Positions 10,813-44,236 of a stretch of 47,298 bases of DNA are shown one piece after another (position 1 is the first letter of the stretch; each line of letters starts with the position of its first letter). Origin of the DNA: Bacteroidota bacterium (GTDB lineage Bacteria; Bacteroidota; Bacteroidia; Palsa-965); the NCBI GenBank assembly GCA_013298545.1, contig JAAFIA010000036.1, forward strand, positions 1-47,298, written 5' to 3'. The position numbers and the translations under genes were made by a program. The notes beneath the pieces are model-generated. The model was not told the DNA's origin. It ran no database searches and saw only the letters and a list, made by a program, of their open reading frames with translations.

Positions 10813-10922
10813 GACGTGAGACAAGAGACGAGAGACATGAGACTGGGTTGCCCTTCGGCATAGAGAGATGGGTTGGTATAATTCTATACAATCTCATGTC
10901 TCTCGTCTCTCGTCTCACGTCT
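10812..10922. repeat. Long inverted repeat (31-bp arms)
   Basis: The arm at 10812-10842 (AGACGTGAGAC, AAG, then AGACGAGAGACATGAGA) is complementary to 10892-10922 at 28 of 31 positions; only the middle AAG/CTC triplet fails to pair. The loop is 49 bp. Transcribed, it would form a very stable stem. Confidence 0.85.
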
Positions 10923-10926
10923 CAAG

Positions 10927-11049
10927 TCTGCGCGGCTAGTGCGGGAAGAAAAACCTCACGTCTCAAGTCTGCGCGGCTAGTGCGGGAAGAAAAACCTCAC
11001 GTCTCATGTCTGCGCGGCTAGTGCGGGAAGAAAAATCTCATGTCTCTTG
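10927..11049 (+). repeat. 41-bp tandem repeat, three copies
   Basis: Copies at 10927-10967, 10968-11008 and 11009-11049. Each starts TCTGCGCGGCTAGTGCGGGA and ends with a CTCACGTCTCAAG-type tail. The first two are almost identical; the third differs at a few positions in the tail. There are no unique spacers, so this is not a CRISPR array. Confidence 0.88.
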
Positions 11050-19916: not shown

Positions 19917-22900
19917 TTACTTCGGTTGTTGTCCTTGCATTTGTTGAATATACGCAGGCGATGTTTCAAAATTATACGTGGCTTCGCTAATCTGTACACC
20001 ATCTTTGAAATAATACACACCACCCCAAGCATACACTTTTTTGGTGTACATCCAACCTTTATTACCAACCACAACCACGCGTTGTATCGTTGTGATATTA
20101 CCCTCTTTTGATTGCTCTTCCGTCAACCCCTGCGGATATTTTTTTACGAGATCATTGATATACTCATCACTTCCCGCTTTGGGTTTGTCGGTTGGATTAT
20201 TGTTTACCGCAACAGGATTAAGAATTTTATCAATCTCCGCAATTTTTTGTTTCGGGTAAAGCTCAATCGGTTTCACCATCAAGGCTTCCTGATAGGTTGC
20301 TTTTGCTGTTTTGTAATCTTTGGCAGCAAATTGCTTATCGGCTTTAACGATCAGGGCGTCGTATTTTTTATTTTTCTCCGCTTCAAATTTCTGATCTGCT
20401 AATAAGCGATCTATTTCCGTGATTTTGTCTTTCGGATATTGATCTGCAGGTTTTTGTTTTACCGCCGCTTGATACGTGAGTTTGGCTGCTGCATATTCTT
20501 TCAACCCAAACAAACTATCGCCTTTTTGCAAGAGTTCGCGGTAAGCACGGTCTTTTGCATTTTCGTTGGCGGCTGCATTTTCTAGACGAGCAATTTCGGC
20601 TAGTTTTTGTTTTGGATAAGCTTCGTTTGGTTTATAACCAAGCGCTTCATTGTAACCTGCTTTCGCCGCTTCGTAATCTTTGCTGTTGAATGCCAAATCT
20701 GCTTTGGCAATTGCATTGCTGTATTTTGCATCCAATTCGGCAGCCGAAGATGATTTGGCCATATTTTCATCGCACTTCGCAATCTGATCTTTCGGATATT
20801 GCTCTGCCGATTTTACAGCACTTGCTTCTTGATACGTTGTTTTTGCACCAGTCCAATCTTTCGCTGCAAACAGTTTGTCCGCTTTTGCAATCAAGTCGTT
20901 GTATTGTTTGTTGAGGGCATCTTGTGCCGCTTTATCGCCCAACAATTTCTCAATTTCAGCGAGTTTGTCTTTCGGATATTGCTCTGTTGGTTTCAATCCA
21001 GATGCTTCGGTGTATGCTGTTCGTGCAGCCACATAGTTTTTTGCCGTCATGGCTTGATCGCCACGCGCAATTGCATCGGTGTATTTTTTCTCTTGCTCGG
21101 CATTGGCTTGATCGGCTAATAATTTCTCGATTTCAGCCAGTTTGTCTTTCGGATATTGCTCGTTTGGTTTGATCGCTAATGCTTCGTTGTAAGCCGTTTT
21201 AGCAGCAGCGTATGTTTTTGCTGTCATCGCTTTATCGCCACGCGCAATCGCATCGTTATACTTTTTATCCATTGCTGCGGCATTCGCTTTATCGGCCATC
21301 AGCTTTTCTATTTCGGCTAATTTATCTTTTGGATATTGTTCCGTAGGCTTGAGTTTCGATGCCGAAGTGTAAGCCACTTTTGCCGCACCATAATCTTGTG
21401 TTCCAAAAGCCGCATCGCCTTGTGCAATCAAATCGGTGTATTGTTTATCCTTTTCCGCATTCTTCTGATCGGCCAATAAACGATCGCATTCCGCCATTTT
21501 ATCTTTTGGATATTGCTCAGTCGCTTTCAAGGCAGAAGCCGAAGCATAAGCCGTTTTCGCAGTAGCGTAATTGGAAAGTCCAAACAAACTATCGCCTTTG
21601 GCAATCGCTGCTTTGTATTTGCGATCAAGTTCGGCAGCAGAGGTAATGGCCGCCAAGCGTTTTTTAATTTCTGCCAGTTGATCTTTCGGATATTTTTCGG
21701 TTGGCTTCAAACCACTGGCTTCGGTGTAAGCCGATTGTGCTGTTTCGTAATCCTGATTATTAAATGCACCATCACCTTTCGCAATCGCATTTTTGTACTT
21801 CTCGTCAATTTCTTTTGCATTCAAATCTTTCGCCAAATTTTCGTCGCAAAGTTTGATGCGATCTTTTGGATATTGTTCCGTTGATTTGAGGTTCGATGCT
21901 TGCTCGTACAAACCACGCGCACCTGCCCAATCTTTCGCGGTAAATTTCTGATCGGCTTGTGTGATCAAATCCTTGTATTGTTTGTTGAGTGCTTCAGTTC
22001 CCGCTTTTTCGGCCAATATCTTTTCAATCTCCGCCAGTTTGTCTTTCGGGTATTGTTCATTAGGACGAATAGCCAAGGCATCGGTGTAAGCGGCTTTTGC
22101 GGCCTCGTACGTTTTGGCCGTCATGGCTTTGTCGCCACGCGCAAGCGCATCTTGGTATTTTTTCTCTTGGTCGGCAAGCGATTTATCAGCGGCAATACTG
22201 GCATCGCATTTGGCAATTTGATCTTTCGGATATTGTTCACCAGCTTTGATGGCGAGGGCTTGCGTGTAAACACCTTTTGCACCGGCCCAATCTTTGCCTT
22301 CAAATTTCTGATCGGCCTGAGCGATTAAGTCTTGGTATTTTTTATCATTGGCCGCATTGGCTGCATCCGCAATATTTTTATCGCATTTCGCAATTTGATC
22401 TTTTGGATATTGTTCTGTCGCTTTCAATGCTGCGGCTTGCGTGTAAACACCTTTGGCACCGGCCCAATCCGAAGCATTGAATTTCTGATCGGCTTGCGAA
22501 ATTAAATCTTGGTATTTTTTCTCTTGTGCATCGGCATTCGCTTTATCCAAAAGTAATTTCTCAATTTCCTTGAGTTTATCTTTCGGATATTTTTCTGTTG
22601 GTTTCAATCCACTTGCTTCAGTATAAGCCACTTTTGCAGAGGCATAATCTTTATCAGCAAATGCTTTATCGCCACGTGCAATCGCATCGTTGTATTTTTT
22701 ATCCGTTTCAGCCGCAGCCGCATCTTTCGCCAGATTATCATCACAGGCTTTGATGCGGTCTTTCGGATACTGTTCTGTTGTTTTGAGTGCTGCTGCTTGC
22801 GTATAAATTGCTTTTGCACCCGCCCAATCCTTCGCCGTAAATTTCTGATCGGCTTGTGTGATCAACTCTTTGTATTGTTTGTCGAGTGCTTCAGCGTTGG

Positions 22901-24692
22901 CTTTGTCGGCTAGTAATTTTTCAATTTCAGCCAATTTATCCTTCGGATATTGCTCTGCCGATTTTAAACCCGTAGCTTCGGTATAGGCTGTTTTGGCCGA
23001 AGCATAATCTTTCGCCGTCATGGCTTTATCGCCACGCGCTATCGCATCTTTGTATTTTTTATCCAGTTCGGCAGACGCTTTTTCAGCATCCAAATTCTGA
23101 TCGCATTTCGCAATCTGATCTTTCGGGTATTGCTCCGTAGCTTTTAAAGCCGAAGCTTGCGTATAAACACCTTTTGCGCCAGCCCAATTTTTCGCCGCGA
23201 ATTTCTGATCGGCATCTTTGATCAAATCTTGATACTTTTTCTCATTTGCCGCAGCGTTGGCATCATCTGCAATCGCTTTATCGCATTTCGCAATTTGATC
23301 TTTCGGATATTGCTCAGCCGACTTGAGTGCGAGGGCTTGTGTATAAACACCTTTTGAACCTGCCCAATCTTTCGCCGCGAATTTCTGATCGGCATCTTTG
23401 ATCAAGTCTTGGTATTTTTTCTCATTCGCTGCCGCGTTGGCATCATCTGCAATCGCTTTATCGCATTTCGCAATTTGATCTTTCGGATATTGTTCAGCCG
23501 ACTTGATGGCAAGTGCTTGCGTGTAAACACCTTTTGCGCCCGCCCAATCTTTCGCTGCAAATTTCTGATCGGCTTGCGCAATCAAATCTTTGTATTTCTG
23601 TTCATTCGCTGCCGCGTTGGCCTCATCTGCAATGGCTTTATCGCATTTGGCAATTTGATCTTTCGGATATTGTTCAGCCGACTTGATGGCGAGGGCTTGC
23701 GTGTAAACACCTTTTGCTCCTGCCCAATCTTTCGCCGCAAATTTCTGATCGGCTTGCGTGATTAAATCTTTATACTTCTGTTCGTTGGCCGCAGCGTTGG
23801 CTGCATCTGCAACAGCTTTATCGCATTTGGCAATCTGATCTTTCGGATATTGCTCGGCAGGTTTGATACCTAATGCTTGCTGGTAAGTCGATTTTGCGCC
23901 CGCGTAATCTTTGCTGTTGAATTTCTGATCGGCCTGAGCGATGAGGTCTTTGTATTTCTGATCGTTGGCCGCAGCCGCACCTGCCGACGCCAATTTCTCG
24001 TCGCATTTCGCAATTTGATCTTTCGGATATTGCTGATCGGGCTTGATCGTTAAGGCTTCTTGGTAAGCAGCTTTTGCACCATTCCAATCCGAAGCATTAA
24101 ATAATTTATCGGCACGATCAATCGCAGCATTGTACAAGCGTTCTTTTTCACGGGCTTGGCGCGCGAGTTCTTTCAAGCGTTCCAATTCCGAGCGCATTTG
24201 CTCGGCATACACTTTGTCGTAATCAAAATCGTCAACATCTGGAGCCGGATTGTAGGTAATACGTGCAATGGGTTTATTGAGAACAGAATAATCGAGGCCG
24301 GGATAGAGTTGAAAAATTTCGATCTCAACATCAAACTCACTGAACGGATTCGTTGCACGTTCGACAGGAATATTGCGGGTAGAAATCGCAAAACGTTTGG
24401 TAATGTACCCACTCTTGGTAACCGTAACAATGTATTCGCCATTGGCGGGAACACGAATTTTAAATTTTCCGTTTCGGTCAGTTGTTTGTGAAGCAATGGA
24501 ACTACCATTTTGCAACAACGTAATGTTTGCTGCATCAACGGGAAGGTCTTTTTGTTTCTTTTCGTTGAACTCGGTTACTTTTCCACCAAAAACAAATTCA
24601 AAGTCCTGCGCGGATAATGAATATCCGATCAGAAAAAACAGCAACAAAAGCGTTGATCGCTTCGCCCACTGGTTCATTAATTTCACAAACAT
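19917..24692 (-). CDS. Giant secreted protein with 22 tandem ~60-residue TPR-like repeats
   Basis: A 1591-residue protein. A signal peptide ends at SLSAQ|D (an internal ATG 15 bp downstream is an equally possible start). Residues about 30-110 are a carboxypeptidase-regulatory-like beta domain (NRNGKFKIRVPANGEYIVTV-type). After a charged helix come 22 consecutive repeats of 59-60 residues (about residues 184-1490). Each carries a pair of helices, roughly YxDLIxxADQKFxAKDWxGA and a YTQALxIKxxEQYPKDQIA segment. The helix pairs, with Ala/Gly at packing positions, resemble TPR. The last 95 residues end in a separate domain (GWMYTKKVYAWGGVYYF). It is probably exported and acts as an envelope scaffold. 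Function unknown. Confidence 0.85.
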   Translation of the reverse strand: MFVKLMNQWAKRSTLLLLFFLIGYSLSAQDFEFVFGGKVTEFNEKKQKDLPVDAANITLLQNGSSIASQTTDRNGKFKIRVPANGEYIVTVTKSGYITKRFAISTRNIPVERATNPFSEFDVEIEIFQLYPGLDYSVLNKPIARITYNPAPDVDDFDYDKVYAEQMRSELERLKELARQAREKERLYNAAIDRADKLFNASDWNGAKAAYQEALTIKPDQQYPKDQIAKCDEKLASAGAAAANDQKYKDLIAQADQKFNSKDYAGAKSTYQQALGIKPAEQYPKDQIAKCDKAVADAANAAANEQKYKDLITQADQKFAAKDWAGAKGVYTQALAIKSAEQYPKDQIAKCDKAIADEANAAANEQKYKDLIAQADQKFAAKDWAGAKGVYTQALAIKSAEQYPKDQIAKCDKAIADDANAAANEKKYQDLIKDADQKFAAKDWAGSKGVYTQALALKSAEQYPKDQIAKCDKAIADDANAAANEKKYQDLIKDADQKFAAKNWAGAKGVYTQASALKATEQYPKDQIAKCDQNLDAEKASAELDKKYKDAIARGDKAMTAKDYASAKTAYTEATGLKSAEQYPKDKLAEIEKLLADKANAEALDKQYKELITQADQKFTAKDWAGAKAIYTQAAALKTTEQYPKDRIKACDDNLAKDAAAAETDKKYNDAIARGDKAFADKDYASAKVAYTEASGLKPTEKYPKDKLKEIEKLLLDKANADAQEKKYQDLISQADQKFNASDWAGAKGVYTQAAALKATEQYPKDQIAKCDKNIADAANAANDKKYQDLIAQADQKFEGKDWAGAKGVYTQALAIKAGEQYPKDQIAKCDASIAADKSLADQEKKYQDALARGDKAMTAKTYEAAKAAYTDALAIRPNEQYPKDKLAEIEKILAEKAGTEALNKQYKDLITQADQKFTAKDWAGARGLYEQASNLKSTEQYPKDRIKLCDENLAKDLNAKEIDEKYKNAIAKGDGAFNNQDYETAQSAYTEASGLKPTEKYPKDQLAEIKKRLAAITSAAELDRKYKAAIAKGDSLFGLSNYATAKTAYASASALKATEQYPKDKMAECDRLLADQKNAEKDKQYTDLIAQGDAAFGTQDYGAAKVAYTSASKLKPTEQYPKDKLAEIEKLMADKANAAAMDKKYNDAIARGDKAMTAKTYAAAKTAYNEALAIKPNEQYPKDKLAEIEKLLADQANAEQEKKYTDAIARGDQAMTAKNYVAARTAYTEASGLKPTEQYPKDKLAEIEKLLGDKAAQDALNKQYNDLIAKADKLFAAKDWTGAKTTYQEASAVKSAEQYPKDQIAKCDENMAKSSSAAELDAKYSNAIAKADLAFNSKDYEAAKAGYNEALGYKPNEAYPKQKLAEIARLENAAANENAKDRAYRELLQKGDSLFGLKEYAAAKLTYQAAVKQKPADQYPKDKITEIDRLLADQKFEAEKNKKYDALIVKADKQFAAKDYKTAKATYQEALMVKPIELYPKQKIAEIDKILNPVAVNNNPTDKPKAGSDEYINDLVKKYPQGLTEEQSKEGNITTIQRVVVVGNKGWMYTKKVYAWGGVYYFKDGVQISEATYNFETSPAYIQQMQGQQPK
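20215..24140 (-). repeat. Coding tandem repeat array, period about 180 bp, 22 copies
   Basis: The DNA behind the 22 protein repeats. Adjacent units in 23160-23880 are near identical at the nucleotide level, for example the GTAAACACCTTTTG and CAAATTTCTGATCGG blocks recurring every 180 bp. The other units are more diverged. This indicates recent amplification in the 23.2-23.9 kb section and older expansion elsewhere. Confidence 0.9.
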
Positions 24693-24950: not shown

Positions 24951-24990
24951 AATTGGTGAATTGGTGAATTGGTGAATTGGTGAATTGGTG
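24951..24990 (+). repeat. 8-bp tandem repeat (AATTGGTG) x5
   Basis: Five perfect head-to-tail copies of AATTGGTG in intergenic DNA. Such perfect short arrays tend to vary in copy number between strains. Confidence 0.92.
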
Positions 24991-25052
24991 AATCTCCCAT
25001 TCTGTAATTCAACCAGTCTCATGTCTCATGTCTCTCGTCTCAAGTCTCTTGT

Positions 25053-25080
25053 TAAAAAAAACGAGCGAAGCGAGTTAGAA
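25053..25080 (-). repeat. 28-bp dispersed module, copy 2 (inverted)
   Basis: Reverse complement of 10785-10812 with one mismatch (CGCTTCGCTCG instead of CGCTCCGCTCG). It is preceded by CTCATGTCTCTCGTCTCAAG sequence like that beside copy 1, so the shared unit is longer than 28 bp. Confidence 0.8.
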
Positions 25081-25134
25081 AAACCCCGAACTCCGTTCAT
25101 CTCCTTTTCCACAAAAATTTCTATCATTGTTCTT

Positions 25135-26274
25135 ATGCAAACACAAACGAGTTTTTGGGAGTACGACCGTTATTTTTCAGGTGTTGATGTTGTTGTAATT
25201 GGTAGCGGTATTGTAGGACTGACAACAGCTTTAACGTTAAAAGAACACGCACCACAGTTGAATATTGTGGTTACGGAGCGTGGTGCTTTGCCTTCGGGTG
25301 CGAGTACCAAAAATGCGGGATTTGCTTGTTTTGGAAGTGTATCGGAATTGTTGGATGATTTGCTTCAAAGTTCCGAAGCGGAAGTTTTTTCCTTAGTCGA
25401 AAAGCGGTATCGGGGATTATTGCGTTTGCGCGAACGGCTTGGCGATGCGGCTATTCAGTATGAATCGTTAGGCGGTTATGAACTTTTTGATGCGGAGGAC
25501 GACTACCAAAAATGTGCAGCACAGCTTGTTCCTTTCAATGCGTTATTGGCAACGTATGCGGGATTGAAAAATGTGTACCGTGTTGCTGACGATCAACTTG
25601 CTGGGTTTGGGTTTCGTGGTGTCAAGCACCTCATACACAATGGCGCAGAAGGACAAATTGATACGGGTCGCATGATGGATGCGTTGATTGCGCGGGTACG
25701 CAGTGCGGGTGTACAAATTTTGAATGGATTAGACATTATACGCTTGCATTCGGAATCGAATATGCAGGTATTGGAAACCAACCAGGGGCATGTGATTCGG
25801 GCGTGTCGGGTGGTGATTTGTACCAATGGTTTTGCGCGTCAGTTTTTGTCCGAAGAGGATGTGAATCCAGCACGTGCTCAGGTTTTGATAACAGAACCAA
25901 TCGCCGATTTGGCGGTGCGTGGCACTTTTCATTACGACCGTGGGTATTATTATTTTCGGAATGTGGGTAACCGAATTTTGCTGGGCGGAGGTCGTAATTT
26001 AGATTTTAGCGGGGAGCAAACGTCGGAACATGCAGTAACGGATTTGATTCAGGAAAAACTGAATGCGTTGTTGTGGGAGGTGATTTTGCCGAAGCGGGAG
26101 GTTGCGGTGGCGATGCGTTGGAGCGGAACGATGGGTGTTGGCGGCGTGAAACGTCCGATTGTGAAGCAGGTGCGCGCAGGCGTGTATGCGGCGGTGCGGA
26201 TGGGCGGGATGGGCGTTGCCTTAGGTTCGCTCACGGGAGAAGAGGCGGCGGAGATGGTGTTGGAGGGCTTGTAG
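25135..26274 (+). CDS. FAD-dependent oxidoreductase, DAO (D-amino acid/glycine oxidase-like) family
   Basis: A 379-residue protein starting MQTQTSFWEYDRYFSG. It has an FAD-binding Rossmann motif VVIGSGIVGLTTALTL, an Arg/Ser-rich SGASTKNAGFACFG loop that contacts FAD in this family, and a C-terminal GGMGVALGSLTGEEAAEMV block that closes the FAD site. DAO-family enzymes oxidise amines or amino acids such as glycine, sarcosine or D-amino acids, producing H2O2 or passing electrons on. Substrate cannot be read. The longer open frame upstream is discounted because it runs through the repeat region. Confidence 0.87.
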   Translation: MQTQTSFWEYDRYFSGVDVVVIGSGIVGLTTALTLKEHAPQLNIVVTERGALPSGASTKNAGFACFGSVSELLDDLLQSSEAEVFSLVEKRYRGLLRLRERLGDAAIQYESLGGYELFDAEDDYQKCAAQLVPFNALLATYAGLKNVYRVADDQLAGFGFRGVKHLIHNGAEGQIDTGRMMDALIARVRSAGVQILNGLDIIRLHSESNMQVLETNQGHVIRACRVVICTNGFARQFLSEEDVNPARAQVLITEPIADLAVRGTFHYDRGYYYFRNVGNRILLGGGRNLDFSGEQTSEHAVTDLIQEKLNALLWEVILPKREVAVAMRWSGTMGVGGVKRPIVKQVRAGVYAAVRMGGMGVALGSLTGEEAAEMVLEGL

Positions 26275-43915: not shown

Positions 43916-44236
43916 TTGTTTTTCAAAAATTGCATACATTCTTTGTGGGGAAAAAATTAACCGCTAAGGGCGCAAAGTCCGCAAAGACCAAAACGTAAAA
44001 AGCTTTGTGTGCTTTGCGATTAAGAAACATCCCCACAAACAAAAAAACTTAGCGTCCTTGGCGTAAACCTTGGCGTACTTTGCGGTTAAAACAACATCCC
44101 CACAAACAAAAAAACTTAGCGTTCTTGGCGTAAACCTTGGCGTACTTTGCGGTTAAAACAACATCCCCACAAACAAAAAAAATTAGCGTTCTTGGCGTAA
44201 ACCTTGGCGTACTTTGCGGTTAACTAACACCCAATT
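43916..44236. other. Intergenic region with inverted and tandem repeats
   Basis: 321 bp between convergent genes. 43958-43986 (TTAACCGCTAAGG, then GCGCAAAG, CCGCAAAG) is roughly complementary to the CTTTGCGGTTAA ends of the 67-bp units that follow, so the whole region could fold. No gene. Confidence 0.7.
44026..44224 (-). repeat. 67-bp tandem repeat, three copies
   Basis: Units start at 44026, 44093 and 44160, each AACATCCCCACAAAC, an A run, then CTTAGCGT[CT]CTTGGCG, TAAACCTTGGCGTACTTTGC and GGTTAA. Within each unit shorter direct repeats of CTTGGCGTA occur. On the minus strand the units read AACCGCAAAG..., a motif widely seen in Bacteroidota intergenic DNA. Confidence 0.88.

Follow-up and report, generated by a model that had tools for sequence, protein, structure and literature searches.

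A predicted Sec-exported protein with 22 TPR-like units from a Bacteroidota bacterium, and relatives of it in vitamin B12 uptake operons

The window analyzed here is a stretch of 47,298 nucleotides from a Bacteroidota bacterium (contig JAAFIA010000036.1, assembly GCA_013298545.1). One open reading frame on its minus strand (19917–24692) encodes an exported repeat protein of 1591 residues. The original prediction had placed this ORF at the same coordinates and had described a secreted protein with 22 repeats, an N-terminal regulatory-like β domain and a separate C-terminal domain, all of which were borne out. A Sec signal peptide (24609–24692, residues 1–28), with likely cleavage at A28|Q29 and no lipobox, was recognized from the sequence and by a script scan; Met6, an in-frame ATG 15 bp downstream of the called start, suits this signal peptide better. 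Next comes an Ig-like domain of the CarboxypepD_reg type (PF13620; 24390–24548, residues 49–101), which passed the Pfam cut-off marginally (32.7 bits vs. 32.3). The repeat array consists of 22 units marked by the motif YPK and spaced 59–60 residues apart. Units 1–6 (23058–24137) are all of a Cys/Trp class (QADQKF..DW..QIAKCDK), with unit 1 forming a diverged N-terminal cap. The class order is mixed in units 7–22 (20217–23057), where units 8, 10, 11, 13 and 19 belong to the Cys/Trp class and units 7, 9, 12, 14–18 and 20–22 to an Ile class (RGDK..LAEIEKLL); unit 22 is an orthologous C-terminal cap. The protein ends with the C-terminal domain (19962–20165, about residues 1510–1577), which is common to the relatives and is predicted to form a five-strand β-meander with C-terminal helices. 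A search of NCBIfam made no credible addition to the Pfam domains. A match to the lipoprotein model TIGR04452 (35.1 bits, residues 205–248) spans one repeat only and was rejected as a repeat artefact, and the Pfam Glyoxalase and ARM matches were judged likewise.

A gene for a DAO-type FAD oxidoreductase (24985–26274, plus strand; real start probably near 25135) is the divergent neighbor. The shared intergenic region, upstream of the oxidoreductase gene, holds a perfect 8-bp tandem repeat (AATTGGTG × 5.4; 24951–24993). Two other tandem arrays occur in the window, one of 41 bp × 3.2 at 10914–11046 and one of 67 bp × 3.2 at 44012–44223, both 96% matched.

The existence of two unit classes was confirmed by a leading-eigenvector split made without prior labels, which returned exactly the classes proposed earlier: units 1–6, 8, 10, 11, 13 and 19 on one side and units 7, 9, 12, 14–18 and 20–22 on the other, with units 1–6 being of the first type and mixtures following. 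The separation of the classes was 0.184, compared to a maximum of 0.078 over 300 column shuffles, and the mean identity was 0.674 and 0.564 within the classes and 0.435 between them. The class marks are an A or G before D in helix A and a Cys or Ile in helix C. These marks are linked inside a unit (8,1 / 2,11; p = 0.0015), but no such linkage extends over the border into the following unit (p = 1); the same within-unit linkage is found in the congener G006 (p = 0.0055). The duplication steps therefore seem to respect a unit border near “KY”, and duplication was apparently stepwise.

The two classes had been said to alternate irregularly and to derive from an ancestral two-unit module. The order is indeed irregular, but there is no alternation beyond chance, with 10 runs against 12.0 expected. 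Unit similarity at lag 2 (0.592) is barely above that at lag 5 (0.581) and lag 1 (0.565), and we reject the two-unit module on the runs test and this lag profile. It is also opposed by the distribution of the classes, since the Ile class is the sole or predominant one in the majority of relatives from other genera: G031, G016, G026 and G035 have no Cys-class mark, and G029 is mostly of the Ile class. Nearly all units belong to the Cys class in the congeners G003 and G005. The simplest reading is that the Ile class is the general form of the family and that the Cys/Trp class spread in the genus of the window organism. A 360-bp period reported by TRF in the array reflects local block similarity. 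The 39-unit gene of G005 (L071) has a higher-order period of 6–7 units (identity 0.63 at lags 6 and 7, compared to ≈0.52), a block-wise amplification that differs from the array in the window.

Some units had been described as nearly identical in DNA, as would be expected after very recent amplification. This did not hold up: units 3 and 4, which form the closest pair, share 92% identity across a 141-bp core and differ by 10 synonymous changes and one nonsynonymous change (dN 0.009, dS 0.485), which rules out a fresh duplication. The pairs 3–5, 4–5, 5–6 and 4–11 have dS values of 0.64–1.12. The median dN/dS between units is 0.24 (146 of 231 pairs with finite dS), indicating that the unit is under selection. 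Judging from these substitution patterns, the likeness of the units is kept by selection, not by very recent copying, and units held alike in this way can pass for recent duplicates. No exact repeat in the gene is longer than 59 bp, so that the array can be resolved with ordinary short reads; with the gene lying well inside its contig, a collapsed or mis-assembled array is unlikely.

Unequal amplification, another part of the original prediction, is supported, and a variable copy number is evident between species: among complete genes of this genus, the unit count is 19 (G006), 22 (window), 23 (G003) and 39 (G005). This range makes a scaffold of “defined length” doubtful. The copies of several other relatives end at contig edges, and their unit counts are lower bounds. 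When units from multiple species were compared, the nearest match of a unit lay in its own protein for 16 of 22 units in the window protein, 14 of 23 in G003, 31 of 39 in G005, 13 of 21 in G029 and 14 of 21 in G031; in G006, a close relative, this was so for just 5 of 19. Units 1 and 22 were nearest to the end units of other species. By this comparison of sequences, the end units are orthologous and the middle units have been remodeled in each lineage.

Within the repeats, the Pfam models TPR_8 (38.2 bits, cut-off 25.7) and TPR_2 (29.7 bits, cut-off 27) pass their curated cut-offs, and the units show the helix–turn–helix hairpin of the TPR clan. A search of the PDB with the whole protein sequence gave no match at E ≤ 0.001. 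Residues 1247–1591, comprising the last four-plus units and the C-terminal domain, were modeled with AlphaFold using 16 aligned relatives (alignment A2, which took 17 of 32 longer stretches; proteins with unknown residues were left out of the structure alignments). The model had a mean pLDDT of 92.9 and a pTM of 0.54, and consists of a repeating 39-residue helix followed by a 14-residue helix, with the C-terminal domain after the last repeat. Foldseek matched it to TPR proteins with E values down to 4.9e-5 and TM-scores of ≈0.2 or less over the whole model. With VIA-align, single units matched TPR hairpins over 53–61 residues at an rmsd of 1.3–2.0 Å, including 61 residues at 2.0 Å for the Sgt2 TPR and 53 residues at 1.3 Å for Sti1 TPR2B (Z below 13, which is modest for helical repeats), while most longer alignments had an rmsd of ≈25 Å or more. 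The good matches of single units and the poor longer alignments suggest one TPR hairpin with a cap per unit, the cap helix continuing into the next unit. The prediction for each unit, made with high confidence, is thus a TPR hairpin followed by a helix that passes into the next unit without a break. Unlike TPR proteins, in which the period is 34 and hairpins abut directly, the window protein has a period of 59–60, with a 39-residue helix between hairpins. This one long helix is made up of the cap helix of a unit and the opening helix of the unit after it, so that the units would be strung along such helices and not packed into the canonical superhelix. Such an array may have the geometry of a rod. 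Ideal helix geometry gives an estimate of ≈3 nm per unit, at which an array of 22 units, if straight, would be longer than a periplasm is wide.

The C-terminal domain defines the family and has no consistent match in Pfam or the PDB. It is a β-meander with a near-invariant WGGVYYFK core, which is present in the window protein. A model from all 33 C-terminal stretches (alignment A3) had a pLDDT of 88.7 and showed the five-strand meander and C-terminal helices. Foldseek found nothing in the PDB at E ≤ 0.001 for this model, the best hits being SMC heads and PUR domains (E = 0.037), and no PDB sequence matched at E ≤ 1. Weak Pfam matches were scattered over 32 families, with three or fewer of the 54 members for any one of them (alignment A1, 54 of 74 C-terminal domains). 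We make no fold assignment; the absence of a match does not make the fold new.

Used as a query, the C-terminal region had a match in 26 of 39 genomes (its own included), and 28 named loci with a family member were found in the genome contigs. Of 247 genomes sampled from the class, 114 matched a 54-row profile of the domain, among the best 150 places of the scan. The number of units ranges from 0 to 39 across the 76 proteins of the first set. These data show that the family spans the Bacteroidia, with conserved end units and with inner units that expand in number and become homogenized lineage by lineage. It is a widespread Bacteroidota family with an apparently undescribed C-terminal domain. 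The genome of the window organism has one further member, a 464-residue ORF without these repeats on another contig (locus L102 on C92). Together with L100, L101, L103 and L104, it forms a repeat-free branch with a CarboxypepD_reg domain, a K/E-rich middle and the C-terminal domain. This branch adjoins a large neighbor that is conserved at several of these loci, and which at L100 resembles a two-component-regulator propeller.

Where the protein resides bears on the earlier proposal of a scaffold or stalk on the cell surface with a tuned length. The very long predicted rod and the species-dependent number of units would suit such a role, and many proteins in the phylum are exported by the T9SS. 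However, the window protein has no T9SS sorting domain (PF18962, TIGR04183) at E ≤ 1 in either Pfam or NCBIfam, and a simple pattern scan found a lipobox in none of 81 family N-termini, giving no sign of a surface lipoprotein. The periplasm is therefore the default place for the protein, and we regard a surface stalk as quite improbable.

A periplasmic rod might also be a general-purpose spacer or scaffold with no fixed pathway, whose paralogs are recruited by the operons in which they lie. The copy in the window would then work with the FAD oxidoreductase or with a DUF4846 protein. Several observations point this way. A DAO-type gene adjoins the family gene divergently in the window and at 8 of the 68 fetched loci (L060, L061, L065, L066, L071, L073, L074 and L095), and a DUF4846 gene lies downstream of the family gene at L037, L065, L066, L073, L074 and L081. 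Genomes carry one to eight members in many other contexts, and several members have K/E-rich or other spacers in place of the 60-residue units. On the other hand, divergent neighbors need not share a function, the single DUF4846 gene of the window genome is on another contig, and linkage to B12 genes recurs in several separate branches of the family tree. We consider a general spacer possible, if somewhat less than probable.

The B12 linkage is seen in relatives that lie in co-directional operons with a cobalamin riboswitch and btu genes. L038 and L039 carry, on one strand, the riboswitch, a DUF4465 protein, a T9SS protein, a BtuB-type receptor, a DUF5074 propeller, a short CarboxypepD_reg-like ORF and two family members (the domain assignments come from L038 and were extended to L039 on the basis of similarity and gene order). 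L105, L106, L107 and L120 have the riboswitch, two leader proteins, BtuB, a BtuG-like protein, DUF71, a family member of 1854–1968 residues and BtuF, with domain calls made on L105. BtuC is also present at L105–L107; the L120 stretch ends after BtuF, and its BtuG-like and DUF71 genes are separated by an additional Peripla_BP_2 gene. For the receptor and permease of L105, B12 models match best, yet below their equivalog cut-offs. Riboswitch, BtuB and BtuG-like genes precede the family gene at L086 (taken together with L118), L115 and L117; L116 has the riboswitch and BtuB, and L108 has the riboswitch upstream and less clear receptor genes. The family gene stands before btuF at L042, L046, L049, L109, L111, L112 and L113, and directly before btuC at L043. 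At L073, the order is family gene, DAO gene, DUF71, BtuG-like, BtuB and riboswitch, with 1.5 kb between the family gene and the DUF71–BtuG–BtuB–riboswitch group. Among the first 68 loci, which were chosen by similarity, B12 genes were near eight (L038, L039, L042, L043, L046, L049, L073 and L086), some flanks being too short to show them.

The association is most regular in one taxonomic family (f34), in which 43 of 46 genomes, and all 32 of good quality, have exactly one member. In 35 of the 43 gene-bearing genomes, one of the next three genes downstream is a btuF gene with the same orientation (27 of 34 newly fetched, with one miss at a contig end, and 8 of 9 obtained earlier). The other eight have no btuF within three genes (seven newly fetched, including one early contig end, and one earlier). 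Eight of the 43 have a riboswitch on the strand of the family gene, no more than 15 kb upstream. In many f34 genomes, an exported protein of ≈335 residues (at L113, 14880–15875), often followed by one of ≈310 residues, is encoded between the family gene and btuF.

Across the class, 6 of 80 gene–riboswitch pairs drawn from the best 150 places of each scan lay within 15 kb, compared to 0.69 expected under uniform placing. All six are on the same strand with the riboswitch upstream; two are a tandem in one genome. The 60-residue units occur in 22 of 22 B12-linked members and 34 of 72 others (p = 2e-6), a comparison in which related genomes repeat, part of the set was fetched for its B12 linkage, and the exact duplicates L068 and L083 were dropped. 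Since a riboswitch is present in 220 of the 247 genomes, co-occurrence with a need for B12 is uninformative. The family is not tied to riboswitch-bearing genomes, as five genomes (G019, G076, G150, G160 and G197) of the 20 listed as having no riboswitch match carry it. Built from 91 rows and 67 columns, with stars on 30 of its 88 branches, the tree of the C-terminal domain cannot tell repeated gain from repeated loss of the linkage.

The position of the gene between btuG-like and btuF genes in these operons would also fit a protein that binds a corrinoid or another cofactor directly, with B12 held by the repeats or by the C-terminal domain. Against this, the number of units varies from 1 to 22 among B12-linked members (some cut by contig ends), and the modeled C-terminal domain has no PDB match at the Foldseek threshold given above. 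We think direct binding very improbable.

At the window gene itself, there is no cobalamin riboswitch and there are no btu genes, so its own context is not that of B12 uptake. No family member is encoded at the riboswitch loci of G006, G001 or the window genome, and in the 15-row starred set of the tree that includes the window protein only L073 is near B12 genes (1/15). The window gene is therefore not filed as a B12 uptake gene. The closest functional clue that we have for it does point to B12 uptake, in which this copy could plausibly have a part. The only riboswitch match in the window genome (L125, on contig C94, 5966–8438) leads a TonB receptor-like ORF, which matches the BtuB reference weakly and has no recognized BtuG-like gene beside it.

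The operons of the relatives resemble the B12 loci of Bacteroides, with their BtuB–BtuG, BtuH and BtuJ/K/L proteins (PMC10404256, PMC8941943, PMC12751083, PMC13398666, PMC6143338): they are led by riboswitches and contain a BtuB-type receptor, a DUF5074 (BtuG-like) propeller, DUF4465 or T9SS proteins, DUF71 and btuF/btuC. The window copy differs in lying outside such a locus. DUF4465 proteins, BtuJ among them, bind B12 (PMC13398666, PMC12751083), and the outer-membrane part of Bacteroidota B12 uptake is known in atomic detail (PMC10404256). The Diphthami_syn_2/DUF71 gene directly before the family gene in several operons is like the DUF71/COG2102 genes of B12 salvage (PMC3541065). A term search of the accessible text of the five Bacteroides papers found no mention of TPR or tetratricopeptide, and the main text of PMC3541065 had no match to TPR, tetratricopeptide, BtuB or riboswitch. 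In four of these six papers, “carboxypeptidase” had no match either. No TPR protein in B12 loci was thus mentioned in the literature searched, from which most subscription papers were out of reach, and this is no proof of novelty.

Taken as a whole, the reading that we tentatively favor is that of a non-lipidated periplasmic rod or tether. The gene product would be exported by Sec to the periplasm and form a rod of 22 units, in which the two end domains would grip partners and the array would serve as the spacer between them. More speculatively, those partners might be components of an envelope uptake pathway. In branches where the family gene is flanked by genes for the outer-membrane receptor (btuB, btuG-like) on one side and by btuF/btuC on the other, the rod would link receptor and binding protein. 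The rod gene in the window adjoins a FAD oxidoreductase gene and not B12 genes, and its partner may therefore be the B12 system acting in trans, or may lie in some other pathway. We consider it unlikely that this family of periplasmic helical rods is a structural part of B12 uptake in several Bacteroidota lineages, coupling the outer-membrane receptor to BtuF/BtuCD, with the window protein as the same component moved out of its operon.

To our knowledge, the route from the outer-membrane receptor to BtuF has been little studied. A long repeat protein encoded between the genes for receptor and binding protein in many genomes would be an unrecognized part of this route, and the B12 context of the relatives offers a testable first clue to the function of such rods. 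Even without the B12 link, the family would provide a natural series of rods with very different numbers of units and conserved ends, which may be useful for understanding why the length of envelope proteins drifts.
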